DNA from: Tissierellia bacterium
GTDB taxonomy: Bacteria > Bacillota > Clostridia > Tissierellales > Peptoniphilaceae
DNA length: 64,000 bases
NCBI GenBank assembly: GCA_030537855.1
Contig: JAUNVD010000004.1
Span: forward strand, 18,683-82,682
Reading direction: 5' to 3'
Under the pieces are notes generated by a model. That model worked only from the letters and a program-made list of their open reading frames with translations. It had not been told where the DNA came from and ran no database searches. Shown piece after piece: positions 43,491 through 63,448 of the stretch (positions are counted from its first letter, which is position 1; each line of letters starts with the position of its first letter). The translations under genes and the position numbers were made by a program.

Positions 43491-43589
43491 ATGATAAAAG
43501 AAAATTACAGTGTGAAGGGATGTTTCTTACAATCTAAAGAGGAATATTTCCTTTTTACCTTTATTTGGAGTAAAGACCATGAAAAATAA
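43491..43589 (+). CDS. Possible 32-residue leader ORF before the first GTPase gene
   Basis: ATG preceded by GAGG at five bases' spacing; encodes a peptide with one Cys and several aromatic residues (CFLQSKEEYFLFTFIW). It overlaps the GTPase start by 11 bases, so it could couple translation. No homology recognised; it may be chance in an otherwise noncoding gap. Confidence 0.25.
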   Translation: MIKENYSVKGCFLQSKEEYFLFTFIWSKDHEK

Positions 43590-44019
43590 GAAAATTTTAC
43601 TTATTGGTCGCTCGTCCTCTGGAAAGACAACTTTATTAGAACATTTACTTTATGGATCTTCTTCTTGTAAAAAAACCCAGTCTGTCGAACGAGTAAAGAA
43701 CTTTATAGATACTCCAGGTGAGTATATAGAAATTCCAACTTTCTATAATGCTCTTATCATCACTTCTTATGATGCTGATGTGATTATGCTAATTGGAGAA
43801 GCAGTGGAACATCATTCTATTTTTCCACCAAATTTCGGTTCCGCTTTTCGGAAACCTATTATTGGCGTAATTACAAAAGTTGATCAAGGAGGATCCGTTG
43901 ATAGAGCTCGGGAACATTTACAAAAGGCTGGAGCAAAAGATATTTTTATAATTGATTATCGGAAGCCAAAAACTTTAGTAGAATTAGAAAATTACTTAAG
44001 TAAAGACCTTCTCCTTTAA
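43579..44019 (+). CDS. EutP/PduV-family GTPase, upstream copy
   Basis: 146-residue Ras-like GTPase of the microcompartment-associated EutP/PduV group. P-loop GRSSSGKTT (10-18), FIDTPGEYIE as switch/G3 region, and TKVD as the base-recognition motif. It closely resembles the second copy at the end of the pdu operon (63449), including a stretch of near-identical DNA around ITKVDQGG. PduV is reported to associate with the microcompartment surface. GGAG lies eight bases before the ATG. Monocistronic, ending in its own hairpin. Confidence 0.85.
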   Translation: MKNKKILLIGRSSSGKTTLLEHLLYGSSSCKKTQSVERVKNFIDTPGEYIEIPTFYNALIITSYDADVIMLIGEAVEHHSIFPPNFGSAFRKPIIGVITKVDQGGSVDRAREHLQKAGAKDIFIIDYRKPKTLVELENYLSKDLLL

Positions 44020-44036
44020 GAGGAAGGTCTTTTTTC
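44003..44036 (+). terminator. Terminator of the upstream GTPase
   Basis: AGACCTT (44004-44010) and AAGGTCT (44024-44030) plus inner pairs with a bulge, then T6; overlaps the last codons. Confidence 0.75.
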
Positions 44037-44040
44037 ATAT

Positions 44041-45159
44041 CTATGCAACTAATAATAAAAGTTCACGAATATCTTTTAAAGTCATAGGAATTGGATTGTA
44101 CGAAATATCCTGACTTTTATAAATATCATTAGCCAAATCATCCATAGATGCAATTAAATCGCCATAGTCAATACCAATTTCATGTAATTTTTGAGGTAAA
44201 TGTAATGATTTACGAATACTTTTAAAATTCTCTACAAATGCTTGAGCATTTAATTCATCATGGTTGTAATGGAAATTAATTTTCCTTGCTAACTTAGCAT
44301 ATTGTGCTTTGATCATATTATTTTTTATATTAAAGTTTATAATTTCAGGCATTAAGATAGGAAAATATTGGTATAAATCCCCATCAAAATATTTGTATAA
44401 ATACAAAGAGATTAACCAACTTAATCCTATGGAAGATTGGTTTAATGCTAAACCGGACATAACAGAGCCTAATTGTATTTGATTTAAAAGTAGACTATAG
44501 TCTAACTCATTAAGTAATAATATGGAACGATTCATAATCTTTAAGCTACGATTAGAATAAAGAGTAGAAAAATCATCTGCCATTGTAGAAATATAGGCGT
44601 CAATATTGGAACATATTGCCATAAGGACCATATACTTTATCTTTTCTTTATCGATGGTACTAGCCATGGATGGAGATAAAATAAGGATATCTGGTATTAA
44701 ATGATCGCTACTAATCCACTGTAGGGTTTTTGAGTTTTTGTCTACCATAAATGCCGTCTTAGTAATTTCAAAACCACCAGCAGTAGGAACAGGTATATGG
44801 ATATGGGTTGGTTTTTGATTAAGTTTATTCATAGATTGGTAGGTATTAATTACATAATAATTAATTAATTTTGTATAGTTTATTAAAGAAAAATCCCCTA
44901 ATGTAATAATAATTTTAGGTTCAAATTTTATCGTTAATAAAACACTTTGTTCAATATTATTTAAAGTAGGGTACTGTTTTTCAGAAACATAAATGATCTT
45001 AATTTCACGATTCCTTAAAGCTGGATATATTTGTTTATTGTATTGATTCAAATATTTATATTCCATAAAAATAAGTACTTTACCGGGATTTAATGTATCT
45101 AAGATTTCTAATTTCTTGTCATTATATATAATATTCGTTTTCATATTAAACCCACGCAT
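44041..45159 (-). CDS. Iron-alcohol-dehydrogenase-like protein lacking the active site (PduQ paralogue)
   Basis: 372 residues alignable by eye with intact PduQ (61833-63017): PVPTAGGFEITKTAFMVDKNSK matches VPTTSGTGSEVSSYVVIKDSK, DHLIPDILILSPSMAS matches ERLIPDVALLDTDFVM, and LALNQSSIGL matches ISFDQSGLGI. The NAD loop GGGSALDTAK has become LGDFSLINYT, and the four metal ligands (Asp and His in GFDTLTH, His in NHSLAH, His in IPHG) are all replaced. It therefore cannot be a normal dehydrogenase. The frame is intact with GGGAGTGG before the ATG, so it is probably made. It is divergent from the PocR-domain kinase; a sensing or binding role is inferred. Confidence 0.7.
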   Translation of the reverse strand: MRGFNMKTNIIYNDKKLEILDTLNPGKVLIFMEYKYLNQYNKQIYPALRNREIKIIYVSEKQYPTLNNIEQSVLLTIKFEPKIIITLGDFSLINYTKLINYYVINTYQSMNKLNQKPTHIHIPVPTAGGFEITKTAFMVDKNSKTLQWISSDHLIPDILILSPSMASTIDKEKIKYMVLMAICSNIDAYISTMADDFSTLYSNRSLKIMNRSILLLNELDYSLLLNQIQLGSVMSGLALNQSSIGLSWLISLYLYKYFDGDLYQYFPILMPEIINFNIKNNMIKAQYAKLARKINFHYNHDELNAQAFVENFKSIRKSLHLPQKLHEIGIDYGDLIASMDDLANDIYKSQDISYNPIPMTLKDIRELLLLVA

Positions 45160-45327
45160 TTTTATCCACTCCCTTTATAATAATAGAGTACCGAAATATG
45201 GAATAAAGGTCAACGGATTTAATTGACAGATTTTTCTTCCGTCTATAATATTTTGTGAAAATCGGATACTTTTTTATGAATTAAAGAAAATGTTATAGGA
45301 TTATTTCGCTTATTCTCAAAAACAGGT

Positions 45328-45333
45328 TATAAT
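45328..45333 (+). promoter_or_regulatory. -10 box of the sensor kinase gene
   Basis: TATAAT 26 bases upstream of the kinase ATG; -35 not clear. Confidence 0.5.
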
Positions 45334-45358
45334 CATAGTAGGTATTAGGGGTGATATC

Positions 45359-46645
45359 ATGAAAATATTGTCGTTATTTGATATTGTTGATTTACACGTT
45401 TTGCAGGAGATGCAAGACAGTTTTTCTACAGTAACAAAATTGGCTATGGTTATTGTAGATTATCGGGGTAAGCCAGTAACAAAATATAGTAATTTTACAA
45501 ATTTTTGCAAGTTTATGAGGAGCAACTCTATTTGTAGGAAACTATGCTTTGACTCAGATGCATATGCTGGGATAAAAGCAGCTAGAAATTCTGAACCTTA
45601 TATCTATAGTTGTTATGCTGGATTAGTAGATATTGCCATTCCCATTGTGTTTCAAGGGCAAATGTTAGGTTCTATTTTAGCCGGTCAAGTTCGTACATCA
45701 GATGAAGATTTTCCTGAGCATATTTTAGACGATCGAGAAATGGCAGATAGATACTTGAATCGAGAAGAAGCAAAAAAATTATTATCGGAAACACCTTTAG
45801 TGAAAAGTCAGGATTTAAGAGATTCTGTGAAGATGATTCATATTTTTTCCAATTATATTGTAGAGATGGGTATTAGTAAATCTGCTCAAAGAGAATTGGC
45901 AGAAAAAAACGAACGATTGAAACATGAAATGGATGTAAAGGTTTCTTTAGAAAAGACATTGAGAGAATCTGAAATCAAAATATTAAGATCTCAAATCAAT
46001 CCCCATTTTTTATTTAATGTTTTAAATAATATTAATAATCTTGCTATGATTGAAGAGGCTGATAAAACATCAGAAATGGTATATACCTTTACAGATATGC
46101 TTCGCTATACAATGCAAAATGATAGTTCCAACGAGGTAACTTTAAGAGAAGAATTAAATTACGTAAAACAATATTTAACAATACAAAAAATGAGATTTGG
46201 TAGTAATTTAAAATATGTAATTTTTGCAGATGAGTATCTTTTGGATATACCATGTCCTTTTATGATTATCCAACCTTTAGTTGCAAATTCTATTGATCAT
46301 GGTCTATTCCAAAGTCGAAACCAAGGAACGGTACGGGTATCTATTGAGGACAATGGAGAAGATATTTTAATTACCGTATTTGACAATGGTGAGGGAATGG
46401 ATCAAAAGATTATAGATGAGATTTTATATGGCAATGAATCTTCGATTCCGTCAAAAACTGGAATGGGCATTGGTCTAATTAATATTGACAAGAGATTAAT
46501 GTATCAATATGGAAAGGATGCTCGGTTACAAATATCATCGGAGCTTGGAAAATATACTAAAGTTCAAATTCATCTTCCTAAGAAGGAGGTGGATTATGAA
46601 AATTCTAGTCGTAGAAGACGAATTTTTGGAGCGAGAAGCTATTAG
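45359..46645 (+). CDS. Sensor histidine kinase with PocR ligand-binding domain
   Basis: 428 residues without membrane helices. The N-terminal PocR domain (about 5-170) has Cys50, Cys59, Cys63 and Cys85 (FCKF, ICRKLC, YSCYAG) and AIPIVFQGQMLGSILAGQV. A coiled linker leads to a LytS-type kinase core with phospho-acceptor His in QINPHFLFN (about 215) and an ATP-binding domain with QPLVANSIDHGL and GMGIGLINI. PocR of Salmonella senses 1,2-propanediol and switches on pdu, so this should be the cytoplasmic diol sensor. The regulator gene starts inside its end (50-base overlap). Confidence 0.9.
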   Translation: MKILSLFDIVDLHVLQEMQDSFSTVTKLAMVIVDYRGKPVTKYSNFTNFCKFMRSNSICRKLCFDSDAYAGIKAARNSEPYIYSCYAGLVDIAIPIVFQGQMLGSILAGQVRTSDEDFPEHILDDREMADRYLNREEAKKLLSETPLVKSQDLRDSVKMIHIFSNYIVEMGISKSAQRELAEKNERLKHEMDVKVSLEKTLRESEIKILRSQINPHFLFNVLNNINNLAMIEEADKTSEMVYTFTDMLRYTMQNDSSNEVTLREELNYVKQYLTIQKMRFGSNLKYVIFADEYLLDIPCPFMIIQPLVANSIDHGLFQSRNQGTVRVSIEDNGEDILITVFDNGEGMDQKIIDEILYGNESSIPSKTGMGIGLINIDKRLMYQYGKDARLQISSELGKYTKVQIHLPKKEVDYENSSRRRRIFGARSY

Positions 46646-47612
46646 ATCCCTTTTAGAAAAATCCTTACTAGATTCTTCTGTAGAGTTAGCGCAAGATGGA
46701 GAAGAGGCTGTTCGTCGAGCTACAAAATGCAAACCAGATTTGGTTCTAATGGATATAGAAATGCCAAAAATGAATGGATTAGAAGCGGCTAGGGAAATAA
46801 AAGATATCTTTCCTGAAGTATCTATTGTTATATTAACAGCTTATTCAGATTTTGAATATGCTAGGGAAAGCTTACGGATACCAGTGGATGATTATTTATT
46901 AAAGCCAATCCGAAGGGATAAACTCTTATCTGTTATCAATAGAATTCAAATGAAACAAAGGGAAGTTATAGAGATAGAAGAGTCTAATATTTCAAAAGGA
47001 GAGGTACATCCCTACTTTAAAGAAGGTAATTTAGTGGAGTTAATTAATGAAGTAGGAAGATATTTAGATACTTCTCTTGATCATGAACCTTTGTTAAAAC
47101 TGAAAAAAAGTATAGATCAAGGTGTTTTAGAAACCTGTGAACAATATAGTTTTACATTAGAAGGAGATTTTGAAGAAAAGTATTTAACTTTTCAATTAAC
47201 ACAAAGTGATAATTCAATTTTACTTATAGGAATGGAACTTATAGAAATTCTATTTAAACAAATTTTATCCTATCGTCGTCGAGGTCAAGGAAATGAGATT
47301 GAAATAGGATTACAATTTATTGAATTACAACTAAGAGATAAGCTTACTCTTACAGATGTAGCAAATGAAGTAAATATTTCTCCTACTTATTTTTCTAAAC
47401 TATTTAAAGAAAAGGTAGGTTTAAATTTTATCGAATATGTAAAACAACGACGTTTATTAAGAGGTAAGATATTACTTAGACATAGTCAATTATCTATTAC
47501 AGAAATTGCTATGGAAACAGGATTTAACGAAGCAAATTATTTTTCTAGAGTATTTAAATTACAAACAGGATATAGTCCAACAGAATATAGGGAGTTAAAT
47601 ATATATAGCTAA
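46596..47612 (+). CDS. AraC-type response regulator of the pdu operon
   Basis: 338 residues: receiver domain with acidic pocket VEDE (7-8), phosphorylation site Asp53 (VLMDIEMP) and Lys in LLKPIR; middle linker; C-terminal AraC double helix-turn-helix (about 240-335: LTDVANEVNISPTYFSKLF, and ITEIAMETGFNEANYFSRVF). YesN-like architecture. Start set at ATG 46596 after AAGGAGG. Partner of the preceding kinase and most likely activator of the operon that begins 151 bases downstream. Ends at a terminator. Confidence 0.9.
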   Translation: MKILVVEDEFLEREAIRSLLEKSLLDSSVELAQDGEEAVRRATKCKPDLVLMDIEMPKMNGLEAAREIKDIFPEVSIVILTAYSDFEYARESLRIPVDDYLLKPIRRDKLLSVINRIQMKQREVIEIEESNISKGEVHPYFKEGNLVELINEVGRYLDTSLDHEPLLKLKKSIDQGVLETCEQYSFTLEGDFEEKYLTFQLTQSDNSILLIGMELIEILFKQILSYRRRGQGNEIEIGLQFIELQLRDKLTLTDVANEVNISPTYFSKLFKEKVGLNFIEYVKQRRLLRGKILLRHSQLSITEIAMETGFNEANYFSRVFKLQTGYSPTEYRELNIYS

Positions 47613-47718: not shown

Positions 47719-47762
47719 AAATATGTAAAGAGAAATCTTAAAAAATTTGGGAGGTAATGTGT

Positions 47763-48053
47763 ATGTTGAAAGAAGCTTTAGGAATGGTCGAAACCAAAGG
47801 GTTAGTAGGAGCCATTGAAGCAGCAGATGCTATGTTAAAATCAGCCAATGTTGGTTTGGTAGGTTATGAAAAGATAGGGTCTGGTTTAGTAACAGTAATG
47901 GTTCGAGGAGATGTTGGAGCAGTAAAGGCTGCTACAGATGCAGGGGTTGCAGCTGCAGACAAGGTTGGAGAAGTCGTTTCTGTACATGTAATACCAAGAC
48001 CTCATACTGATGTGGAAAAGATATTACCGATACGTGCAGGGGAAGAAGGATAA
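47763..48053 (+). CDS. pduA: Microcompartment shell protein (PduA-type hexamer)
   Basis: 96-residue single BMC domain: [25 protein letters not shown], then [19 protein letters not shown] and [10 protein letters not shown]. The K in VETKG and the GSG pore loop are typical of PduA/PduJ hexamers that tile the shell and pass small polar substrates. Start set at ATG 47763, eight bases after GGGAGG; ATG 47757 is too close. First gene of the operon. Near copy of pduJ (54634). Confidence 0.93.
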
Positions 48054-48071
48054 TTATAGGAGGATTTCTCG

Positions 48072-48893
48072 ATGGATGAAAAATTAATGGACCAAGTGAT
48101 GGAAGAAGTATTAAAGAAACTAAATAGTGGAAACACTGATGTGGTAAAAAGAAAGGATGCACCTGTGGAAGAACAAAAGGAAAGAACTAATAAAACCTTT
48201 GGAGCCAATGGAATTACTGAATTTGTTGGAACAGCCATTGGTGATACCGTTGGTCTTGTGATTGCCAATGTAGATTCCGAACTTTTGGCTTCTATGAATT
48301 TGGATAAGAGCTATCGTTCCATTGGAATCATTGGTGGTAGAACAGGAGCAGGACCACAAATCATGGCTGCGGATGAAGCAGTAAAAGCAACTAATACTGA
48401 AATTATTAAAATCGAACTACCTCGAGACACTAAAGGTGGAGCTGGACATGGTTGTTTAATTATTTTTGGAGCAGATGATGTTTCAGATGCAAGAAGAGCT
48501 GTAGAAGTTGTTTTAGACGATTTAGATCGTACTTTTGGTGATGTTTATGGAAATGACGCAGGTCACATTGAATTACAATATACTGCTAGAGCTTCTAAGG
48601 CCTTAGCTTATACCTTTGGAGCAAAAGAAGGACAAGCTTTTGGGATTATCGTTGGAGCACCTGCTGCAATTGGAGTAGTAACTGCAGATACAGCTCTAAA
48701 AGCGGCAAATGTAGAAGTGGTTTCATACTCTACGCCTACCAATGGAAACTCCTTTAGTAATGAGTGTACAGTAACTATTACTGGAGATTCTGGTGCAGTT
48801 CGCCAAGCAGTACTTGCTGCAAAAGATGTAGGGGTTAAATTATTAGAAGCTCTCGGTGGAGAAGCTCCTTCTTCAACAAAACCATATATTTAA
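48072..48893 (+). CDS. pduB: Microcompartment shell protein PduB (tandem BMC trimer)
   Basis: 273 residues with two BMC domains (about 60-170 and 175-265; IGIIGGRTGAGPQIMAADEAVKATN, and FGIIVGAPAAIGVVTADTALKAAN). An N-terminal helix MDEKLMDQVMEEVLKKL resembles core-binding peptides, as in other PduB proteins that tie the enzymatic core to the shell. Length matches PduB (about 270). AGGAGG precedes the ATG. Confidence 0.93.
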   Translation: MDEKLMDQVMEEVLKKLNSGNTDVVKRKDAPVEEQKERTNKTFGANGITEFVGTAIGDTVGLVIANVDSELLASMNLDKSYRSIGIIGGRTGAGPQIMAADEAVKATNTEIIKIELPRDTKGGAGHGCLIIFGADDVSDARRAVEVVLDDLDRTFGDVYGNDAGHIELQYTARASKALAYTFGAKEGQAFGIIVGAPAAIGVVTADTALKAANVEVVSYSTPTNGNSFSNECTVTITGDSGAVRQAVLAAKDVGVKLLEALGGEAPSSTKPYI

Positions 48894-48912
48894 AATAAAG
48901 GGGTAGTTAATT

Positions 48913-50577
48913 ATGAAATCAAAAAGATTTGAAGTATTGGCTCAACGACCGGTTAACCAAGATGGATTTGTAAAAGAGTGGCCGGATGTCGGGCTTGTAG
49001 CAATGAACAGTCCATTTGACCCAAAACCTAGTATAAAAATTGAAAATGGTATTGTTACTGAATTAGATCAAAAAAAGAGAGAAGACTTCGACTTTTTAGA
49101 TCAATTTATTGCTGACAATAGTATTATCCTAGAAAATGTTGAAAAAGTTTTGGCTATGGATGATATAGAAATTGCAAGAAAATTAGTTGATATTAATGTT
49201 AGTAGAGATGAAGTATTAGAAATTACACTATCTATGACACCTGCTAAGATTTGCTCTGTATTAAATCAATTGTCTGTACTGGAAATGATGATGGCATTAA
49301 CGAAGATGAGAGCTAGAAAAACTCCAGCGAACCAATGTCATGTTACAAATTTAAAAGACAATCCAGTACAAATTGCAGCAGATTCTGCAGAAGCAGCTTA
49401 TCGAGGCTTTGCAGAAATGGAAACCACCACTGCTATTGCAAGATACGCACCTATTAATGCAATGGCAATTATGATTGGTGCTCAAGTAGGACGACCTGGT
49501 GTATTGACCCAATGTTCTTCAGAAGAAGCAACAGAACTTCGTTTAGGATTAAAATCTATTACAGCATATGCGGAAACCGTTTCTGTTTATGGTACGGAAC
49601 AAGTTTTCATCGATGGAGATGACACACCATGGTCAAAGGCATTCTTAGCTAGTTCTTATGCTTCAAGAGGTATTAAAATGAGATATACTTCTGGAGCAGG
49701 TTCAGAAGTTCTAATGGGGTATGCTGAAAAGAAATCAATGTTGTACTTAGAGTCTAGATGTTTATTTATGACAAAAGGAGCAGGAGTACAAGGTATCCAA
49801 AACGGTTCTATTTCCTGTATTGGAGTTCCTGGAGCAGTTCCTAGTGGTATACGTGGAGTATTAGCAGAAAACTTATTAGCTTCTATGCTTGATTTAGAGG
49901 TAGCTTCTGGAAACGATCAAACTTTCTCACATTCTGATATTCGAAGAACCGCTCGTACCTTATTAGAGATGATTCCAGGCACAGACTATATATTCTCTGG
50001 ATACTCTGCAACACCTAACTACGACAATATGTTTGCTGGTTCTAACTTTGATGCCGAAGATTTTGATGACTACAATATTTTACAAAGGGATATGATGGTT
50101 GATGGTGGATTACGACCAGTCTCTGAAGAAGAAGTTATAAAACGTAGAAATAAAGCAGCTAAAGTTATGCAAGGTCTTTTTAGAGAATTAGGTTTTCCAG
50201 CGATTACAGACGAAGAAGTTGAAGCAGCAACTTATGCTCATGGATCCCATGATATGCCGGAAAGAAATATTCCTGAAGATTTAGTTGCAGCAGAAGAATT
50301 TATGAAAAGCTCACAAGATGGGGTTACTCTTGTAAAAGCTCTTTATAATGCAGGATTTAAAGATGTAGCTGAGTCTTTCTTAAATATGATGAAGCTTAGA
50401 GTAGCAGGAGATCAATTGCATACATCTGCAATTTTAGATGAAGATTTCAATGTTATATCTGCAGTAAACGATACAAATGACTATATGGGACCTCAAACTG
50501 GATATATGATGTCTGAAGAAAGATGGAACGAAGTAAAGAATATACCTAATGCGGTTGAAGCTGCTGATTTTGAGTAA
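48913..50577 (+). CDS. pduC: B12-dependent diol dehydratase large subunit
   Basis: 554 residues, exactly the PduC length, with LAQRPVNQDGFVKEWPD at the start and DPKPSIKIENGIVTELD. It binds adenosylcobalamin and substrate and converts 1,2-propanediol to propanal (or glycerol to 3-hydroxypropanal). Diol versus glycerol preference cannot be read here. The gene order and the microcompartment favour propanediol. Forms an (alpha-beta-gamma)2 enzyme with the next two genes. Confidence 0.95.
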   Translation: MKSKRFEVLAQRPVNQDGFVKEWPDVGLVAMNSPFDPKPSIKIENGIVTELDQKKREDFDFLDQFIADNSIILENVEKVLAMDDIEIARKLVDINVSRDEVLEITLSMTPAKICSVLNQLSVLEMMMALTKMRARKTPANQCHVTNLKDNPVQIAADSAEAAYRGFAEMETTTAIARYAPINAMAIMIGAQVGRPGVLTQCSSEEATELRLGLKSITAYAETVSVYGTEQVFIDGDDTPWSKAFLASSYASRGIKMRYTSGAGSEVLMGYAEKKSMLYLESRCLFMTKGAGVQGIQNGSISCIGVPGAVPSGIRGVLAENLLASMLDLEVASGNDQTFSHSDIRRTARTLLEMIPGTDYIFSGYSATPNYDNMFAGSNFDAEDFDDYNILQRDMMVDGGLRPVSEEEVIKRRNKAAKVMQGLFRELGFPAITDEEVEAATYAHGSHDMPERNIPEDLVAAEEFMKSSQDGVTLVKALYNAGFKDVAESFLNMMKLRVAGDQLHTSAILDEDFNVISAVNDTNDYMGPQTGYMMSEERWNEVKNIPNAVEAADFE

Positions 50578-50591
50578 TGGGGTGAATAAGA

Positions 50592-51242
50592 ATGGAAGTT
50601 AATGAAAAAGTATTAAAACAGATTATTGCAGAAGTGATTGCAAGTCTACAAACGGAAGACAACCCTGTTCCAAACAAAAAAGCAGAAGTTCAAGGGAATA
50701 TGGAACTGATTAGTCATGGACTTGCAAAAAAAGGTATTGACACAGATGAAGTTGTAATTGGAGTTGCTCCAGCTTTTGGAAAATATCAACATAAGACAAT
50801 CATCCAAACTCCTCATGACCAAGTACTACGTGAAATTATGGCAGGGATTGAAGAAGAAGGACTAAAATCCCGAGTGATTCGAGTAAATAATAGCTCAGAT
50901 GTTGCCTTTATTGGTCTTGCAGCAGCAAAATTGTCAGGTTCAGGAATTGGAATTGGTCTTCAGTCAAAGGGAACTATTATTATACATCAAAAGGATTTAG
51001 CTCCCTTATCTAACCTTGAACTTTTCCCACAAGCACCACTACTAGAATTAGAAATGTATCGTGCTATAGGAAGAAATGCAGCTAAATATGCAAAGGGTGA
51101 AAATCCAAATCCTGTTCCAACATTAAATGATCAAATGGCAAGACCTAAGTATCAAGCCATTGCTGCGTTACTTCATATTAAAGAAACGGAGCATGTTGAT
51201 CGTCACGCAAAACCAGAAGAATTAGAAATTAATTTTAAATAA
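50592..51242 (+). CDS. pduD: Diol dehydratase medium subunit
   Basis: 216 residues. An N-terminal amphipathic helix ([18 protein letters not shown]) of the type that targets cargo to the shell interior precedes the subunit body with [35 protein letters not shown] and [28 protein letters not shown] precedes the ATG. Confidence 0.95.
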
Positions 51243-51254
51243 AAGGTGAACTTT

Positions 51255-51824
51255 ATGGATAATAAAACTTTAGAACAAATGATTAAAGAAGTCATGGAAA
51301 CCATGACGAATGGTGAAAAAAGCAATGTAAAAACGGAAGCTTCTCCAAAATCAAAGATGCCTACAAATACTGCAACAACCTATCAGAAGAAAGATAATAC
51401 AGATGGTAAGTATGGTTTAACCACAAGTGATTATCCTTTAATTGAAAATAGACCAGAACTTGTAAAAACACCTACAAATCTTACTGTTGATGACTTAACA
51501 TTAGAAGGTGTTGTAGCAGGTAAAATTACAAATGCAGATTTAAAAATTCGTCCAGAAACTCTATATATGCAAGCAGAAATCGCGGAAGATGCAAATCGAA
51601 AAGCATTTGCTAGGAATTTACGAAGAGCAGCAGAATTAATAGCTGTTCCTGATGAAAAATTATTGGAAATTTATAATGCGCTACGTCCTAACAGATCAAG
51701 TAAGGAAGAGTTACTTGCCATTGCAGATGAACTAGAGTCAAAATATGATTCAAAGATTAACTCTAAGTTGATTCGAGAAGCAGCAGAAGTTTATGAAAAG
51801 AGAGATATACTAAGAATCGATTGA
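51255..51824 (+). CDS. pduE: Diol dehydratase small subunit
   Basis: 189 residues. N-terminal helix DNKTLEQMIKEVMETM and a variable linker are followed by the conserved part DYPLIENRPELVKTPTNL, DLTLEGVVAGKI and the Arg-rich FARNLRRAAELIAVPD. Start set at ATG 51255 after AAAGGTGA; a GTG at 51246 is an unlikely alternative. Confidence 0.94.
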   Translation: MDNKTLEQMIKEVMETMTNGEKSNVKTEASPKSKMPTNTATTYQKKDNTDGKYGLTTSDYPLIENRPELVKTPTNLTVDDLTLEGVVAGKITNADLKIRPETLYMQAEIAEDANRKAFARNLRRAAELIAVPDEKLLEIYNALRPNRSSKEELLAIADELESKYDSKINSKLIREAAEVYEKRDILRID

Positions 51825-51836
51825 TGGAGGTAAGAT

Positions 51837-53642
51837 ATGAAGGTTCTGGCAGGTATTGACATTGGTAACGCAACGACTGAAACAGCAATAGGAAGAGTAA
51901 AGGAAAATGGAGAAGTTGAATTTTTAGGTTCTTCCATTGTAAGCACTACAGGGATTAAAGGGACAAAAGACAATATTAACGGAATCTATAAATCTTTACA
52001 AACGGCTCTTAATGATAGCAATATTTCCTTAGAGGAACTAGATGAGATCAGAATCAATGAAGCAGCACCTGTTATTGGTGATGTTGCCATGGAAACTATT
52101 ACAGAAACGATTATTACCGAATCAACGATGATTGGCCATAACCCTGCAACTCCAGGTGGAGTTGGAATAGGAGTAGGTATTTCTGTAGACTTAGAAAATA
52201 TAACTAGTATGGATAAAAGTGAAGACCTAGTTGTTTTAGTTTCCAAAGATTGGGATTTTGCCCAAGCTGCAAAAATTATGAGTGTTGCTATGGAATCAGG
52301 ATTTTCCATTAAAGCAGCAATTATGCAAAAGGATGATGGTGTACTAGTTAACAATCGATTATCAACGACGATACCTATTGTAGACGAAGTAACTTTATTT
52401 GACAAAATTCCAAGAGATGTACTTACTGCAGTGGAAGTTGCCCATACAGGTAAAGTTGTAGAAGTTCTAAGTAATCCTTATGGTGTTGCAACATTATTTG
52501 GCTTAGATTCTGAAGAAACAAAGGCAATTGTTCCGATTAGTCGAGCTTTGATAGGAAATCGATCGGCAGTCGTTTTAAAAACTCCAAAAGGAGATGTTCA
52601 AGCTAGAAGTATACCTGCCGGTGTTATTATTGCATATGGTGAAAGAGGCCAGGTCAAAGTTGATGTGGAAAATGGTGCAGAAAAAATCATGGATTCTTTA
52701 GAACAGGTAATGCCAATAAAGGACATTAAAGGAGAATCTGGTACCAATGCTGGTGCAATGTTAGAAAAAGTACGTCATACTATGGCCACACTTAGTGATA
52801 AAAACTATGAAGATATCCAAATTACTGATTTATTAGCTGTGGATACAACAAGTCCTCAAAAGGTTCAAGGGGCTTTAGCAGGAGAATTTTCGATGGAAAA
52901 TGCTGTTGGAGTAGCTGCAATGGTTCGTTCTGACAAATTACAAATGGATTTAATTGCTAATGAGTTAGAAAGAAAATTAAATCTTCCTGTAATTGTTGGA
53001 GGTGTAGAAGCGGATATGGCCATTCGCGGAGCTTTAACCACACCAGGTACGAATACACCTATTGCAATTTTAGACCTTGGAGCCGGTTCCAGTGATGCAT
53101 CTCTTATGAAAGTAGACAATGAAGTTATACTCGTTCATTTAGCTGGTGCAGGTAATATGGTAAGTTTACTAATCCAAACTGAATTAGGTCTTGATAGCTT
53201 TGATGAAGCGGAGGATATTAAAAAATACCCATTGGCAAAGGTGGAATCTATGTTTCATATTCGTCATGAAGATGGAGCAGTTGAATTCTTCAATGAAATG
53301 GTGGATCCTTCTCTCTTTGCAAGAACTGTAATTGTTAAAGAAGAAGAATTAGTTCCATTAGAAACGAATCATTCTATTGAGAAGATTCGTATCATCCGCC
53401 AAGAAGCAAAGAAAAAAGTGTTTGTAACTAATGCCCTTCGAGCATTACGAAGTATCAGTCCTACTGGGGATATTCGAGGGATAGAATATGTAGTTTTAGT
53501 TGGTGGTAGTAGCTTAGACTTTGAAATTCCTCAATTTATTACTGATGCCTTATCACAATATGGTGTTGTTGCTGGAAGAGGAAATATACGTGGAACTCAA
53601 GGTCCAAGAAATGCTGTTGCTACAGGTTTGGTATTAACATAA
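51837..53642 (+). CDS. pduG: Diol dehydratase reactivase large subunit
   Basis: 601 residues. Hsp70-like ATPase start AGIDIGNATTETAIG, later ILDLGAGSSDASLM and VVLVGGSSLDFEIP. With PduH it swaps damaged cobalamin out of the dehydratase in an ATP-dependent way. Length fits DdrA/PduG (about 605-610). TGGAGG precedes the start. Confidence 0.94.
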   Translation: MKVLAGIDIGNATTETAIGRVKENGEVEFLGSSIVSTTGIKGTKDNINGIYKSLQTALNDSNISLEELDEIRINEAAPVIGDVAMETITETIITESTMIGHNPATPGGVGIGVGISVDLENITSMDKSEDLVVLVSKDWDFAQAAKIMSVAMESGFSIKAAIMQKDDGVLVNNRLSTTIPIVDEVTLFDKIPRDVLTAVEVAHTGKVVEVLSNPYGVATLFGLDSEETKAIVPISRALIGNRSAVVLKTPKGDVQARSIPAGVIIAYGERGQVKVDVENGAEKIMDSLEQVMPIKDIKGESGTNAGAMLEKVRHTMATLSDKNYEDIQITDLLAVDTTSPQKVQGALAGEFSMENAVGVAAMVRSDKLQMDLIANELERKLNLPVIVGGVEADMAIRGALTTPGTNTPIAILDLGAGSSDASLMKVDNEVILVHLAGAGNMVSLLIQTELGLDSFDEAEDIKKYPLAKVESMFHIRHEDGAVEFFNEMVDPSLFARTVIVKEEELVPLETNHSIEKIRIIRQEAKKKVFVTNALRALRSISPTGDIRGIEYVVLVGGSSLDFEIPQFITDALSQYGVVAGRGNIRGTQGPRNAVATGLVLT

Positions 53643-53653
53643 GGAGGCAAAGA

Positions 53654-54016
53654 ATGGGAAAAGAAGATTCCATTGCCATAGTTATAGCATATTCAAAATC
53701 TGTGGAAGATAGCAAAATACTAGATTTTATCTGCTACGGGATCGAGGAAGAGGGGATTCCTTATAAATTAGTTGCCATGGACATAAAAGATGCCATATCC
53801 TTGGCAAAGGAAGGAGCAAAACAATCGAAGCTTGGAATTGGTTTATCCTTAGATGAAGAAGGAAAAGGATGTTTAAATCATAGTAACTTTAAAGATGATA
53901 AAGTACTTTTCCTTAAGAAAATTAAAACAGAAGAAGATGCAAGAATACTTGGTACCAATGGAGCAAGATTGATGAAAGGAATCCCTTTTAAAATGGAAGG
54001 GAAGGCTAAAAATTGA
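53654..54016 (+). CDS. pduH: Diol dehydratase reactivase small subunit
   Basis: 120 residues resembling the dehydratase medium-subunit fold, with YGIEEEGIPYKLV, SKLGIGLSLDEEG and EDARILGTNGARLMKGIPF. It partners PduG. AGGAGG precedes the start; the stop overlaps the TTG start of pduK by 3 bases. Confidence 0.92.
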   Translation: MGKEDSIAIVIAYSKSVEDSKILDFICYGIEEEGIPYKLVAMDIKDAISLAKEGAKQSKLGIGLSLDEEGKGCLNHSNFKDDKVLFLKKIKTEEDARILGTNGARLMKGIPFKMEGKAKN

Positions 54017-54567
54017 AAATGGCATATGGATTTATAGAAACAGCAGGATTAACTGCTGCAATTACAGCATCTGACATTTTATTAAAAGCCGCAAATCTCA
54101 CATTAATTGGCTTAGAGCTAACAAAAGGTTTTGGATATACAGTTGTAAAAATAGAGGGTAATGTATCAGCGGTAAAAGCAGGAATGGATGCTTGTTCAGC
54201 AGCACCTGAACTTTTAGGAAAAATTGTATCCATAAGTATTATTCCAAGACCTTTGGATAATATCGATATGCTGGTTAAAAATGATGAGAATAACTGGTTT
54301 TCCAAAAAGGAAAATACACAAAATAATAAAGTATCGGATACAGAAGAAAAAGAAGAGTCAAAGGAACATGAAAAAGAAATAATAGTACAAAAAGAGAAAA
54401 AAGATATTCCTGGTAAAACCAAAGATGAATTGGAAAAAATGAAGGTTGTAGAACTAAGAAAACTAGCTAGGGAATTAGATACATCTATTCCTAGAAATAA
54501 GATTAAATATGCTAAGAAAAAAGAACTTGTTGAAGAAATAGGGGCATATTATCAATCTTTAGATTAA
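54013..54567 (+). CDS. pduK: PduK-like BMC shell protein with SAP/Rho-N-like C-terminus
   Basis: 184 residues: a BMC domain (1 to about 88, YGFIETAGLTAAITASDILLKAAN and ISIIPRPLDNID), a charged Lys/Glu linker (90-140), then DELEKMKVVELRKLARELD and KKKELVEEIGAYYQ, which fit the SAP/Rho-N helical fold seen in nucleic-acid-binding tails. Start is TTG 54013 with GAAGG seven bases before; ATG 54019 is the alternative. Position between pduH and pduJ matches pduK. The tail is different from the Cys-containing PduK tail of Salmonella. Confidence 0.82.
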   Translation: MKMAYGFIETAGLTAAITASDILLKAANLTLIGLELTKGFGYTVVKIEGNVSAVKAGMDACSAAPELLGKIVSISIIPRPLDNIDMLVKNDENNWFSKKENTQNNKVSDTEEKEESKEHEKEIIVQKEKKDIPGKTKDELEKMKVVELRKLARELDTSIPRNKIKYAKKKELVEEIGAYYQSLD

Positions 54568-54633
54568 CAAAGTTTATTTAATATGAGCTTTGTTATAAAT
54601 TCTTAGAATATTTGTAAAATAAGGAGGAAAAAA

Positions 54634-54900
54634 ATGAATAGTGCATTAGGCATGATCGAAACAAAAGGTTTAGTAGGAGCAATTGAAGCAGCAGATGCCA
54701 TGACAAAAGCAGCAAATGTAGAATTAGTTGGCTATCAAAAAATTGGTTCAGGATTAGTAACTGTAATGGTACGAGGTGATGTTGGAGCAGTAAAAGCAGC
54801 AGTTGATGCAGGTACCACAGCAGCTGATCGTGTTGGCCAAGTAGTGTCAACTCACGTAATTCCAAGACCTCATGGCGACGTAGAAATGATGCTTAAATAA
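54634..54900 (+). CDS. pduJ: Microcompartment shell protein (PduJ-type hexamer)
   Basis: 88-residue BMC protein almost identical in layout to pduA ([45 protein letters not shown]). A very strong site AAGGAGGAAAAAA before the ATG suggests high expression, as expected for the most abundant shell protein. A weak hairpin CAAAG/CTTTG lies in the 66-base gap before it. Confidence 0.93.
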
Positions 54901-54928
54901 TTGTTAGAATTGCTATAGGAGTGACGAG

Positions 54929-55762
54929 ATGGATTTAAAAATAATAAATGAGAAAATAAAAGAATTTGAATACCTCGTCCAATCAGGGAGATGTGAAAAA
55001 TTTCAAGGAGAACTATTTACAGGAGTAGATTTAGGAACCTCTTCTATTGTACTTTCTGTTATTGATGAAAAAGGTCATTTTGTAGCAGGAGCTTCTCGGA
55101 AAGCAAGATCCATCCGAGATGGTATCGTAGTAGATTATTTAGGAGCAGTGAAAATTGTTACTGAATTAAAAGAGGACCTTGAAAGATGTTTAGGAAAAAC
55201 TTTACGTTATGGATCAGCTGCCATTCCTCCAGGTGTAGGAGAAGGAAGTAGTAAAATTCTTTCTAACATTTTAGAGGCAACAGAATTCCAAGTAGTCTCT
55301 ATTATCGATGAACCTGAAGCAGCAGCATTGCTCTTAGGGATTAAAGATGGAGCAGTTGTTGACATTGGAGGGGGAACGACAGGAATTTCTGTTTTAGAAA
55401 ATGGGGAAATAGTACTTTCTTATGATGAAGCAACTGGTGGTCATCATATGAATTTGGTGATTGCTGGTGCACTTAAGTTAGACGTAGAAGAAGCGGAGAA
55501 GAAAAAAATAAAAGAACCAAATAAAGTTTTTCCCATCATCTCTCCAGTAGCAGAAAAAATGGCTAAGATTGTTCACCATGCTATAGATTCTTTACAAGTA
55601 GAGACTGTATATTTAGTTGGAGGTTCTACTGACTTTCCAAAGATGAATCAGCTTTTCAAAAAAGAATTGAATAAAAAAATTATTAAACCTTATAAACCCA
55701 TATATGTTACTCCTATGGGCATTGCACTAAGTTGTCGTAATGAGGTGATGAAGATTGAATAA
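54929..55762 (+). CDS. eutJ: EutJ-like actin/Hsp70-fold protein
   Basis: 277 residues with TGVDLGTSSIVLSVID, a second phosphate loop VDIGGGTTGISV and VYLVGGSTDFPKM, the EutJ signature of the Hsp70/actin ATPase fold. Thought to chaperone microcompartment enzymes; its role is unproven. Firmicute pdu operons usually carry pduL between pduJ and eutJ; here only 28 bases separate them. Overlaps the next gene by 8 bases. Confidence 0.9.
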   Translation: MDLKIINEKIKEFEYLVQSGRCEKFQGELFTGVDLGTSSIVLSVIDEKGHFVAGASRKARSIRDGIVVDYLGAVKIVTELKEDLERCLGKTLRYGSAAIPPGVGEGSSKILSNILEATEFQVVSIIDEPEAAALLLGIKDGAVVDIGGGTTGISVLENGEIVLSYDEATGGHHMNLVIAGALKLDVEEAEKKKIKEPNKVFPIISPVAEKMAKIVHHAIDSLQVETVYLVGGSTDFPKMNQLFKKELNKKIIKPYKPIYVTPMGIALSCRNEVMKIE

Positions 55763-56435
55763 AAAAATTACAGAACAACTTTTGGAACGTATCATCACAG
55801 AATATCGAAAAAGGATGAAACCCAAAGTTTTTTGTCACTTCACTTCAAAATCAAATTTCAGTAAAACTTTTGTAGAGAAAATAAAAGAAAGTGGTTATGA
55901 AACCTTTGGATTAAAAGGAGATCCGTATTGTCACCAAGAAATATCATCATGGTTAGATACTGGACAACTTATGAACGAAAGTTTAAAAGGTGTTTTTATT
56001 TACGGGTTAGATATTAAAGAAGCATTAGACCTATTAGAAGGGAGAGCTTCGGGAGACAAATTACTATTTATCTTAAAATGTGTGGACAAATATCCTGTTT
56101 GGATAGGACTTCCCGATTTAATCGAACCTTTTGAAAATAGATCTTCAGAAGAAGCACGACAGTTGTTATTAGGAGCATTGAAACAAAGAGGATACCATAT
56201 TATCGGCTGGAATCATGGAAACAATCATACAAAGCCATCTTTTGAAGTAGATGTGACCAATAATAAATGTACAGATGAAAAAGGAAATTGCCAAAGGTTA
56301 AGCAAAAGATTTATTACTTTAAAAGACTTAAAACTTTCTCAAGGAGGAACTCTTGAGATAGGTCATCAATCTAAATGCACCATGGCAGTGGAAGACTTTT
56401 GTAGAAATCAAGGGATTCAAATAAGGAGAGTATGA
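55755..56435 (+). CDS. pduM: PduM-like microcompartment protein
   Basis: 226 residues. N-terminal helix NKKITEQLLERIITEYRKRM, a middle part with little recognised similarity (FIYGLDIKEALDLLEG), and a C-terminal PduM-like end RFITLKDLKLSQGGTLEIG followed by CRNQGIQIRRV. It is longer than Salmonella PduM (about 163). Family call rests mainly on position between eutJ and pduN and on the C-terminal pattern. A structural role in the compartment is known for PduM. Confidence 0.65.
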   Translation: MNKKITEQLLERIITEYRKRMKPKVFCHFTSKSNFSKTFVEKIKESGYETFGLKGDPYCHQEISSWLDTGQLMNESLKGVFIYGLDIKEALDLLEGRASGDKLLFILKCVDKYPVWIGLPDLIEPFENRSSEEARQLLLGALKQRGYHIIGWNHGNNHTKPSFEVDVTNNKCTDEKGNCQRLSKRFITLKDLKLSQGGTLEIGHQSKCTMAVEDFCRNQGIQIRRV

Positions 56436-56436
56436 A

Positions 56437-56700
56437 ATGTTTTTAGGTACGGTGGTAGGTAATGTAGTTGCTACCCAAAAAGATGAAAGATTACATGGGA
56501 AAAAACTTCTTATTGTTGAACCCTTTGATCCAAGAACAAAGGAAACGAAATCCCCTATTTTAGCAGTGGATACAGTAGGGGCTGGTAATTCTGAAACAGT
56601 AATATTGGTAAGAGGAAGTTCAGCAAGAAGTAGTATTGACAAAAATGCACCAATTGATGCTGCAATTGTTGGCATTGTTGATGAAATTGAAATTCTATAG
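56437..56700 (+). CDS. pduN: Microcompartment vertex protein (EutN/CcmL pentamer)
   Basis: 87 residues with FLGTVVGNVVATQKDERL, LLIVEPFD and AVDTVGAGNSETVILVRGSSAR, then DAAIVGIVDEI: the complete pentamer fold that caps shell vertices. AAGGAGA precedes the ATG. Confidence 0.94.
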   Translation: MFLGTVVGNVVATQKDERLHGKKLLIVEPFDPRTKETKSPILAVDTVGAGNSETVILVRGSSARSSIDKNAPIDAAIVGIVDEIEIL

Positions 56701-56708
56701 GAGGCTCT

Positions 56709-57656
56709 ATGGGAAAGGTATATACAAAAACTGGAGACCGAGGGAACACCACTCTTTATGGGGGAACTTCCGTTTCAAAAGATTCTCTTAGGGTTAAAAC
56801 ATATGGTTCAGTCGATGAGGCAAATGTTGCAATTGGAATAGCAAAAACAAAATTAGATGATAAGGTTTTAATTCAATTACTAGAAGTGATTCAGCTAAAA
56901 CTTTTTGAAGTGGCAGCAGAAATTGCCTCTGATGAAGAAGGCCAAAGTCGTTTACATGATGTGATTAATTTAGAGGATGTAGCATTTTTAGAAAAAACAA
57001 TCGATGAACTTAGTTCTAGGATTCCTTCTAAAAATTATTTTATGATCCCTGGAAAAACCGAAGCTTCTGCAAATCTTCATGGAGCTCGGGTAGCTGTTAG
57101 GCGAGCAGAAAGAGAACTTATAGCCTTATCGAAGTCCAAACCAGTTCGAGATCCTTTGATGAAATATTTAAATCGTTTAAGCGATTTGTTCTTTATATTA
57201 AGTAGATATGTAGATGAATCAGACTATAAAGAAAATGACAAAGGACGAAATTTAGATTTGGAAACCACAGCTCAAATTGAAAAGATTTGTCAAAATAAAG
57301 CAAAAGAGATGGGAATTCCAATGGCGATCGCTTTTGTCGATGAACAAGGTCATTTAATTCGTTTTTCACGTATGAAGGATACATTACTAGTTAGCTCGGA
57401 GCTAGCTATAAATAAAGCTTATACGGCGGCAGCTTTAAAGATGACTACGGAAAAACTTGGTAAAATAGCAAAGCCAGGAGAATTTTTATATGGTATAGAA
57501 AATGAAAAACGTATGGTTATTTTTGGAGGAGGAATTCCACTGTATAAAAGAGGAAAATTGGTAGGAGCCATTGGAGTTAGTGGAGGGACTGTTGAAGAAG
57601 ACATAATCGTAGCAACCATTGGTGCTTCCTACTTTGATGAAGGGAGCTGTGATTAG
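56709..57656 (+). CDS. pduO: Cob(I)alamin adenosyltransferase PduO with GlcG/HbpS-like domain
   Basis: 315 residues. N-terminal adenosyltransferase (1 to about 180) with KVYTKTGDRGNTTLYGG, YGSVDEANVAIG and AVRRAERELIAL makes adenosylcobalamin from cob(I)alamin and ATP. The C-terminal DUF336/GlcG domain (about 185-315, AIAFVDEQGHLIRFSRM and VGAIGVSGGTVEED) is of the type that binds haem in PduO. The two-domain form equals Salmonella PduO. Overlaps the pduP frame region. Confidence 0.94.
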   Translation: MGKVYTKTGDRGNTTLYGGTSVSKDSLRVKTYGSVDEANVAIGIAKTKLDDKVLIQLLEVIQLKLFEVAAEIASDEEGQSRLHDVINLEDVAFLEKTIDELSSRIPSKNYFMIPGKTEASANLHGARVAVRRAERELIALSKSKPVRDPLMKYLNRLSDLFFILSRYVDESDYKENDKGRNLDLETTAQIEKICQNKAKEMGIPMAIAFVDEQGHLIRFSRMKDTLLVSSELAINKAYTAAALKMTTEKLGKIAKPGEFLYGIENEKRMVIFGGGIPLYKRGKLVGAIGVSGGTVEEDIIVATIGASYFDEGSCD

Positions 57657-57660
57657 TCAA

Positions 57661-59064
57661 ATGAAGATTGAACAATCAGATATACAATTGATTATAGATA
57701 AGGTTATGGAGCGATTAGATAATATAAATGTAGATACAAATTCTAGTGATAGAATTGGAGTTTTTGATGACCCTATAGAAGCGATTAAAGCTGCTAAAAA
57801 GGCTCAAAAAAAGCTCTTTCGATTCACATTACAACAAAAAAAGGACATAACAGATTCCATACGAAAAGAATTATTAGAACATGTGGAAGAATTTGCTGTG
57901 GAAGCAGTAAAAGAAACAGGTATGGGTCGAATCGAAGATAAAATAGAAAAAAATAAAGCAGCTTTATCACAAACACCAGGGGTTGAAGATCTGCGAGCTG
58001 GAGTTTTTACAGGAGATGCAGGATTAACTTTATTGGAAATGAGTCCATTTGGAGTTATTGGTGCTATTACTCCTTCTACAAATCCTACAGAAACAGTTAT
58101 TAACAATAGTATTGGAATGATTTGTGCAGGAAACTCCGTTGTCTTTTCTCCTCATCCTGGAGCTTATAAAATCACAAACCGTACAGTGGAACTTATCAAC
58201 AAGGCAATACAAAAGGCTGGAGGCCCAGCAAATTTAGTTGTAACTATTGATAATCCCTCTATGGAAAAGGCAGATGTGGTATTAAGTCATCCTGATATTA
58301 ATATGCTTGTAGCTACTGGAGGTCCAGGAGTTGTAAAATCTGTTTTATCCTCAGGAAAAAAAGCAATTGGAGCTGGAGCTGGGAATCCACCTGTTGTTGT
58401 TGATCATACAGCTGATATTGAAAAAGCTGTGGATGACATTATTATGGGGGCAAGTTTTGATAATAACTTACCTTGTACTTCAGAAAAAGAAGCATTGGTT
58501 CTAGACGATGTATTTGAGTACTTTATGTTTTGTATGAAAGACCATCAAAAAACCTATGTGGTAGAAGATAAAAAAATAATTGAAGACATTAGAAAACTAG
58601 TTATCTTAGAGAATGGGAATCCAAATAAAAATTTTACTGGAAAATATGCAAGTTATATTTTAGATAAAGTTGGAATTCAGGTAGATGATTCTGTACGATT
58701 AATCGTTATGGAAACAGATTTCGACCATGATTTCGTACAAGAAGAATTAATGATGCCCATATTACCGATTGTACGTGTTGCAAATAGAAAAGAAGCATTA
58801 GAAAAAGCTATTTTGGTGGAACATGGAAATCGTCATACAGCTATTTGTCATTCTAAAGACATTGATTTTCTATCTGCCATGGCTAAGGAAATTCAAACCA
58901 CTATATTTGTAAAAAATGCACCTTCTTTTGCAGGTATAGGTATTGGAGGAGAAGGTTACACAACATTTACCATAGCAGGCCCAACTGGTGAAGGGTTAAC
59001 CTCGGCTTCTTCATTTACGAGGAAACGACGATGTACATTAGTCGAAGGATTTAATATTAAATAG
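57661..59064 (+). CDS. pduP: CoA-acylating propionaldehyde dehydrogenase
   Basis: 467 residues turning propanal, NAD and CoA into propionyl-CoA. N-terminal targeting helix IQLIIDKVMERLDNI, NAD region SPFGVIGAITPSTNPTET, catalytic Cys in NNLPCTSEKE, and FAGIGIGGEGYTTFTIA near the end. Start set at ATG 57661 because it gives the family's normal N-terminal helix; the AAGGGAG site is 14 bases away, so ATG 57637 inside pduO remains possible. Confidence 0.93.
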   Translation: MKIEQSDIQLIIDKVMERLDNINVDTNSSDRIGVFDDPIEAIKAAKKAQKKLFRFTLQQKKDITDSIRKELLEHVEEFAVEAVKETGMGRIEDKIEKNKAALSQTPGVEDLRAGVFTGDAGLTLLEMSPFGVIGAITPSTNPTETVINNSIGMICAGNSVVFSPHPGAYKITNRTVELINKAIQKAGGPANLVVTIDNPSMEKADVVLSHPDINMLVATGGPGVVKSVLSSGKKAIGAGAGNPPVVVDHTADIEKAVDDIIMGASFDNNLPCTSEKEALVLDDVFEYFMFCMKDHQKTYVVEDKKIIEDIRKLVILENGNPNKNFTGKYASYILDKVGIQVDDSVRLIVMETDFDHDFVQEELMMPILPIVRVANRKEALEKAILVEHGNRHTAICHSKDIDFLSAMAKEIQTTIFVKNAPSFAGIGIGGEGYTTFTIAGPTGEGLTSASSFTRKRRCTLVEGFNIK

Positions 59065-59076
59065 CGGAGGTTCATG

Positions 59077-59916
59077 ATGGAACTTAATTTAATTTTAGCA
59101 GCATTTGGCGGAGGAGTTCTAGGAGCATTTATGGGAGGACTTCCAGCCTTTATCTTATGTGGGATCGTTGGATTTGCTGGATTTGCTATGGGTGGAGATA
59201 TGGACATACTAGGTGCTGTAGCTTTTGGACCCTTTTTAGGACCACATATTGTATTTGGAGGTGGAGGAGTTGCAGCAGCTGCCTATGCAAAAAGCATTGG
59301 AGTAATGCCTGAAGGAACAGATATATTAACACCTCTTGCTAAATTTCAAAACCCTAAGATTTATTTAGTTGGTGGAGTGGCCGGAATATTGGCTCATTTA
59401 TTTCAATACTTATATGGAACTGTATTAGCACTTCCTTTAGACACCGTTGCCCTTAGTGTTGTTACAATGGGGATTTTAGTAAGGTTGACCATTGGAAAAA
59501 CTGGGATAACAGGAACTTGCCCCATAGATGGTAAACATGCAAGACCATTTTTCCCAGAAAAAGATACGATTCCTAATCTATTGCTTTCAGGCTTTGCCAT
59601 AGGATTACTATCATCCTATTATGCAGTGGAATACAATGCTGTAACATTAGGATTCTGTGTATCAGCAGCCTCCTTAATGTTTACACAAATGGGTTTCCCA
59701 TTACCTTCAACACATCACATTACACTAAGTGCAGCATATGCTGCAGCAGCAACCGGTTCCGTTCTTGTAGGTGGAATATTCGGTTTAATCGCTGCAATAA
59801 TAGGTGATTTTAGCAATAAAACATTTAACAGCTATTGTGATTCCCATATGGATCCTCCGGCAATGACAATTTCAATATTATCATTAATCTCATTTACATT
59901 GTTAGCGCTCATCTAA
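59077..59916 (+). CDS. Polytopic membrane protein of unknown family inside the pdu operon
   Basis: 279 residues, glycine-rich, with about seven or eight hydrophobic segments (for example FGGGVLGAFMGGLPAFILCG and LIAAIIGDF). Polar loops carry GTCPIDGKHARPFFPEKD and GFPLPSTHHITLS, with conserved-looking His, Cys and Pro. I recognise no family; it is not PduF (no NPA motifs of aquaglyceroporins). Start set at ATG 59077 six bases after GGAGG. Lying between pduP and pduS with tight spacing, it is probably needed for the pathway, perhaps as permease for diol, aldehyde or product; function is inference. Confidence 0.75.
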   Translation: MELNLILAAFGGGVLGAFMGGLPAFILCGIVGFAGFAMGGDMDILGAVAFGPFLGPHIVFGGGGVAAAAYAKSIGVMPEGTDILTPLAKFQNPKIYLVGGVAGILAHLFQYLYGTVLALPLDTVALSVVTMGILVRLTIGKTGITGTCPIDGKHARPFFPEKDTIPNLLLSGFAIGLLSSYYAVEYNAVTLGFCVSAASLMFTQMGFPLPSTHHITLSAAYAAAATGSVLVGGIFGLIAAIIGDFSNKTFNSYCDSHMDPPAMTISILSLISFTLLALI

Positions 59917-59939
59917 TGAACCATAGGAGAGGATAAAAG

Positions 59940-61822: not shown

Positions 61823-61832
61823 GAGGATAAAA

Positions 61833-63017: not shown

Positions 63018-63098
63018 ATTTTCGAGTATGATAACACACTTTATTTCCAATCATAATATTTGGAGGTGGAGTAAAAGGACATGGGAAGAGGTACGAAT

Positions 63099-63446: not shown

Positions 63447-63448
63447 CT

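Follow-up and report, generated by a model that had tools for sequence, protein, structure and literature searches.

A maintained, predicted non-catalytic relative of iron-containing alcohol dehydrogenases encoded divergently from a PocR-domain sensor kinase in pdu loci

A 64,000-nucleotide stretch of a Tissierellia bacterium genome (GenBank assembly GCA_030537855.1, contig JAUNVD010000004.1, positions 18,683 to 82,682; hereinafter designated the window) carries a predicted propanediol-utilization (pdu) microcompartment locus, in which the gene of a PocR-domain sensor histidine kinase lies divergent from a gene encoding a relative of the iron-containing alcohol dehydrogenases (Fe-ADHs). Judged by its sequence, this relative is likely non-catalytic (hereinafter designated the pseudoenzyme), and comparison with its homologues gives good support to a real, maintained and unnamed pseudoenzyme family of pdu loci. 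The best single explanation is a role for the pseudoenzyme as non-catalytic regulatory partner of the kinase, to which we assign a probability of roughly 40%. How PocR-domain two-component systems decide on building a diol microcompartment is, to our knowledge, not settled, and a conserved dead dehydrogenase facing the kinase would offer a testable candidate for a missing input to such a system.

Results and discussion

The Fe-ADH fold is retained and the catalytic residues are replaced

The minus-strand open reading frame (ORF) of the pseudoenzyme is intact over the 372 codons given in the initial annotation, and a Shine-Dalgarno-like GGGAGTGG precedes its ATG. The product matches the Pfam models ADH_Fe_C (45.5 bits) and Fe-ADH (40.4 bits), each above its cut-off, and structure prediction, which had been proposed as a check, returns the Fe-ADH fold with confidence; this prediction supersedes a weak one from a five-row alignment (predicted local distance difference test score 68.3). 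By both Pfam and predicted structure the protein thus has the Fe-ADH fold. It falls below every NCBIfam cut-off, scoring 92 bits against the AdhE model (951 needed) and 85 bits against the ErcA model NF041833 (curated cut-off 550). The pseudoenzyme shares the fold, the domain order and a set of backbone residues with PduQ, FucO and AdhE-C, while its four metal ligands, the equivalent of FucO His267 and the GGGSxxD motif are all replaced. The backbone landmarks first pointed out, PVPTAGG, DHLIPD and NQSSIGL, can all be found and correspond in the alignment to VPTTSGTG, ERLIPD and DQSGLGI of PduQ, though as counterparts rather than identical motifs.

The metal site of Fe-ADHs consists of Asp242, His246, His330 and His357 in human ADHFE1, and His267 of FucO is a substrate rather than a metal residue (PMC5125639). 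Aligned to these ligands, positions 180, 184, 248 and 262 of the pseudoenzyme are M, S, W and L, whereas the same columns read D, H, H and H (DHHH) in 29 of 29 control Fe-ADHs, so that all four ligand positions are indeed replaced, as the initial annotation held. The controls are hand-picked search matches from related genomes; left out of them were three AdhE fusions (L014, L015 and L017), four duplicates or near-copies (L007, L009, L013 and L020), L002 and P0004. Residue 252, equivalent to FucO His267, is Leu in the pseudoenzyme, compared with His in 27 of the controls and Glu in 2. Among 40 genome-search loci outside the window's genome, some of them duplicates, 39 have DHHH, and the sole exception is the family member in genome G233 described below. 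The nicotinamide adenine dinucleotide (NAD) loop had been described as gone; it is not deleted and keeps its length, but its GGGSxxD motif is replaced by GDFSxxN. An annotation as iron-containing alcohol dehydrogenase, made from the Pfam match alone, would very probably be wrong in function.

Seven members form a maintained family

Protein searches covering 5.8 billion proteins first yielded, besides the window's own protein, P0002 only; profile searches then added P0003 and P0004, and a later one P0005, P0006 and P0007 without relisting P0003. In the order, 249 genomes were searched in six frames, reading through stops, which recovered a further member at 290 bits in G233, a genome from a different taxonomic family, with 36% identity to the window protein and no stop codon. 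Identity to the window protein is 55% for P0002, which matches Pfam ADH_Fe_C only, 42% for P0003, 37% for P0005, 36% for P0006 and 34% for P0007. Including the window's own, the family thus has seven members of 370–374 residues, about six of them independent because P0005 and the G233 protein are identical at 347 of 374 positions. P0004 was excluded from the family as an outlier Fe-ADH (branch 4.15) with GGGS kept and ligands D, Q, H and H; it is a distant Fe-ADH retaining three ligands, with Gln at the first-His position.

The family is rare. Among the matches listed it occurs in 2 of 249 genomes of the order; seven of the 30 listed order matches are without ligand inspection (G161, G153, G196:C8, G145, G165, G143 and G156), and these score 91–107.5 bits against 290 for the G233 member. 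No further member came from genome samples spread evenly over the class (391 genomes) and the phylum (398), in which the five other matches at E 1e-38 or better are DHHH. Two scans of genome contigs, each with only two short peptide patterns, found no relative; records near the window's own genome may be missing from them. Searches of the open-licence literature for pseudoenzymes among Fe-ADHs or in microcompartments and for inactive PduQ yielded no description of such a family, and it goes unmentioned in the available part of the 2021 microcompartment catalogue (PMC8217296).

The seven members form one clade with 100/100 support on a stem branch of 2.79. None of the four ligands is kept in any of them, the ligand columns reading MTLIIII, STTNNNN, WWWFFLF and LILLFLL, and GGGS, present in all 29 controls, is found in none. 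The 29 ADHs share 43 nearly invariant columns; 10 of these are retained by six or more of the seven members, and 27 have been lost from six or more. Eleven invariant family positions are common to at least 80% of the ADHs, and 17 others, invariant in all seven members, occur in no more than 20% of the ADHs. Of these private residues, N94 and Y95 sit in the former NAD loop, and N94, Y95 and A127 all lie in or beside former cofactor-binding motifs. Conservation across distant homologues despite the lost catalytic residues, together with the single clade, the lineage-specific invariants and the confident fold, gives solid backing to the earlier description of a maintained pseudoenzyme.

That the gene is instead a slowly dying, functionless ADH duplicate is very improbable and strongly disfavoured. 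Its rarity, the long stem branch and the loss of every catalytic residue could suggest such a course, but members of near-equal length with private invariant residues argue against it. In neutral simulations started from the ORF, stops averaged 14.6 at 55% amino-acid identity and 20.5 at 36%; none of 200 runs at either level was stop-free, and each of the 400 had at least 6 stops. Moreover, the 36% identity between the window and G233 pseudoenzymes is close to that of the response regulators (40%) and PduQs (42%) of the two genomes, indicating similar divergence. No frameshifted or decaying homologue was seen, both genomic copies being open in six-frame searches; the five database members count only through their conservation, since entries in a protein database are open by nature.

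The private residues also bear on whether the protein has acquired another ligand or chemistry, its remodelled cleft (N94-Y95, A127) accepting a nucleotide or a corrinoid precursor without metal. The 17 private invariants, three of them at former cofactor motifs, would fit such a binding protein or enzyme, and maleylacetate reductases of the same superfamily function without metal (PMC5125639). Those reductases, however, keep GGGS and the His equivalent to FucO His267 (PMC5125639), whereas the family has lost GGGS and has L or F at residue 252 in seven of seven members, and so is not maleylacetate-reductase-like. Charged residues are invariant at seven positions only (D157, D340, D363, E310, K97, K313 and R365), a further point against new chemistry, which we consider unlikely. 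No His or Cys is invariant across the seven members, so there is no conserved alternative His/Cys metal site, the kind of intact site that would have told against a pseudoenzyme.

The gene lies beside the sensor kinase of the diol cluster

In G233, the pseudoenzyme gene (minus strand) is followed by genes for the kinase, the regulator, PduA, PduB and PduC (plus strand), in the same order as in the window, and the two kinases are 56% identical over their length. The pseudoenzyme gene is thus beside the sensor histidine kinase of the diol cluster in 2 of 2 readable loci; the kinase has a PocR domain in both genomes, as first annotated for the window. The G233 contig stops 152 bases past the pseudoenzyme stop codon, which places the PduV side outside it, and an intact PduQ-like ADH of this genome lies on a separate contig.

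Such a kinase is encoded at 24 places in the order, of which all but the weakest two (G117 and G118) were read. These 22 comprise 14 pdu loci, seven non-pdu loci and one (G189) whose contig ends before any pdu gene. Among the 14 pdu loci, two carry the pseudoenzyme, five have an intact Fe-ADH beside the kinase/regulator pair (three directly upstream of the kinase and two just after the regulator) and seven have neither. The window, G233 and G031 form one clade in both kinase and PduC trees, with 100/100 support each.

These neighbourhoods suggest, at the probability given above, that the pseudoenzyme is a non-catalytic regulatory partner of the kinase. The dehydrogenase would have lost its chemistry but not its dimer scaffold or its two-domain cleft. 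By binding the kinase, perhaps through the PocR half of the latter, it would relay the state of a pathway metabolite (aldehyde, alcohol or nucleotide) that occupies the former active cleft; alternatively, the pseudoenzyme may simply lock the kinase in one signalling state. In either case pdu shell and enzyme genes would be tuned to need. The narrower proposal that this metal- and cofactor-free family is the metabolite-reading sensor subunit of the PocR kinase, the pathway's own dehydrogenase fold having been converted to report aldehyde or alcohol pressure from the microcompartment to the two-component system, is tentative and somewhat doubtful.

Several observations weigh against a regulatory partnership. 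Beside the kinase/regulator pair there is no ADH-family gene in seven of the 14 pdu loci of the order (one of which, G154, is cut inside the regulator), nor in any of five further pdu loci of the class with such a kinase. In G031 the kinase belongs to the same clade as those of the window and G233, yet neither the six-frame search nor the locus shows a pseudoenzyme; this kinase type therefore does not need one, and the gene either disappeared from G031 or was acquired or relocated independently. Only two neighbourhoods show the gene, P0002, P0003, P0005, P0006 and P0007 being covered here at the protein level. In the initial interpretation, then, the maintained pseudoenzyme stands, and the association with a PocR kinase gains a second genome in which the two genes are likewise divergent, but it does not extend to every kinase of the clade.

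The gene could be a mere neighbour of the kinase that serves another cellular process, a distinctly unlikely reading. It forms a separate transcription unit outside the operon and has no copy in G031, as a mere neighbour might. In G233, a genome of another family, it is nonetheless placed and oriented as in the window, and the pdu loci of these two genomes belong to a single clade in the trees of both PduC and the kinase.

We also consider it unlikely that the pseudoenzyme serves the microcompartment as a dead structural subunit, which would form mixed dimers with PduQ or pair with the shell or PduV and thereby tune enzyme position or activity without signalling. In favour of such a subunit, the fold is kept, both genomes holding the pseudoenzyme also have an intact PduQ-like ADH, and the gene adjoins a duplicated PduV gene, as the initial annotation had observed. 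It is, however, divergent from the kinase and outside the pdu operon in both readable loci, its product is only 18% identical to the window's own PduQ, and the protein lacks an N-terminal extension that might act as an encapsulation peptide.

Comparison with known regulatory and predicted defunct enzymes

The closest precedent for the regulatory reading comes from Pseudomonas, where the iron-ADH ErcA/YiaY is co-transcribed with a hybrid kinase (ErcS/PP_2683) and required to induce an alcohol-degradation cluster: loss of YiaY/ErcA or of the kinase represses the alcohol cluster, and AlphaFold3 predicts mutual contact (PMC12997753). As there, the window gene encodes an iron-ADH-fold protein beside the sensor kinase of an alcohol or diol cluster. 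YiaY, however, is reviewed as an Fe2+-dependent ADH, unlike the window protein, which has no ligands and falls far short of the ErcA model; and the Pseudomonas kinase is a hybrid for which a PocR domain is unmentioned in the available part of the account (PMC12997753). A further point against our reading is that mutation of YiaY His281, described as NAD(P)-interacting, impairs induction (PMC12997753), so that the best precedent may need a site that is absent here, and the analogy is one of arrangement rather than detail. The window pair could in turn be a counterpart to the ErcA/YiaY puzzle of whether a regulatory iron-ADH needs catalysis, offering a comparable arrangement from which evolution has removed the catalytic site.

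A PocR kinase and regulator pair upstream of pdu genes is also found in PDU1D loci (PMC4207490) and in the Acetobacterium woodii pdu cluster (PMC7593272), and the available parts of these accounts mention no ADH-like pseudoenzyme. The A. woodii regulator binds ahead of both the kinase gene and pduA (PMC7593272); by analogy, the divergent intergenic region of the window (45160..45358) plausibly holds a response-regulator site that would also serve the pseudoenzyme gene. No motif shared between pdu intergenic regions was found, which weighs against a regulatory role; the best ungapped matches (13–16 of 18 bases, without a control) are taken as background for such AT-rich DNA. Retention of a predicted defunct enzyme copy in a microcompartment locus has a parallel in the second aldehyde dehydrogenase of GRM1, a member of another enzyme family, for which inefficient catalysis is presumed and a scaffold or regulator role proposed (PMC4207490).

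Origin within the Fe-ADHs

The initial annotation called the protein a PduQ paralogue. Such an origin may be correct: identity to the window's PduQ is low and the best tree does not group the family with cluster-end PduQs, but that grouping is not rejected (approximately unbiased (AU) test, p 0.171). Descent from the ADHs directly upstream of the kinase (G047, G196 and G053) is rejected (AU p 0.0022), and grouping with the kinase-regulator-ADH type (G242:C4 and G231) is borderline (AU p 0.0565); all three results are weak because of long branches and odd composition.

The kinase-side ADHs of G047, G196, G053, G242:C4 and G231 may be relocated PduQs. The stretches read of G196, G053 and G242:C4 contain no PduQ further along the cluster, and the contigs of G231 and G047 end inside the cluster. 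The ADH genes of G047, G196 and G053 (L067:3963-5120, L069:9599-10798 and L073:10555-11730) encode intact D/H/H/H iron-ADHs and each immediately precede the kinase gene on the same strand, that of G047 overlapping it by 4 bp. The G231 gene beside the regulator (G231:C229:9829-10932; L076 about 6941-7939) has intact ligands and one in-frame TGA, possibly a sign of a damaged gene or of an assembly error.

Features of the window

Table 1 Features of the pseudoenzyme locus and the pdu cluster in the window
Feature	Position	Strand	Basis or remark
Second PduV/EutP-like GTPase	43579..44019	+	Convergent with pseudoenzyme gene; 63% identical to copy at 63449-63889
Inverted repeat, 10-bp arms AAAGACCTTC / GAAGGTCTTT, 11-base loop, T-rich flank	44002..44032	.	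Between convergent genes
Predicted iron-ADH-fold pseudoenzyme gene, 372 residues	44041..45159	-	Pfam matches, predicted fold, ligand-column alignment
Divergent intergenic region, 199 bp, pseudoenzyme gene/kinase gene	45160..45358	.	Sequence
Promoter-like TTGACA-17-TAATAT toward kinase	45223-45251	+	Promoter scan
Sensor histidine kinase: N-terminal PocR, His_kinase, HATPase_c	45359..46645	+	Pfam
AraC-type response regulator (Response_reg and HTH_18)	46596..47612	+	Probable start MKILVVEDE at 46596 within ORF 46509-47612
pdu cluster: PduA, PduB, PduCDE, reactivase subunits, bacterial microcompartment (BMC)-domain shell proteins	47757..63889	+	Homology
pdu cluster, further: cobalamin adenosyltransferase, aldehyde dehydrogenase, Complex1_51K/RnfC protein, PduQ, EutS-like, PduV/EutP	47757..63889	+	Homology
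Intact PduQ-like iron ADH, comparison enzyme	61833..63017	+	D176, H180, H244, H258 and GGGS kept

The names PduA to PduE are putative assignments by homology. Shuffled sequence gave on average 25.1 matches in the promoter scan and the window 35, so that little weight attaches to any single site, including the one toward the kinase. The inverted repeat, which is absent from a scan restricted to loops of 3–8 bases, is probably a shared terminator of the two convergent genes. At the gathering threshold, Rfam gave one tRNA only in the whole window.

The window's PduQ-like gene lies about 17 kb from the pseudoenzyme gene, and its product carries some 25 C-terminal tail residues missing from the G233 PduQ and from the pseudoenzymes. 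The second PduV gene is outside the operon, between the biotin synthase (bioB) and pseudoenzyme genes, so that bioB is separated from the kinase gene by these two genes. Two genomes of the class have, divergent from the kinase gene, a gene for a BirA-type biotin ligase that includes a helix-turn-helix domain (L114:4874-5923 and L118:4897-5946).
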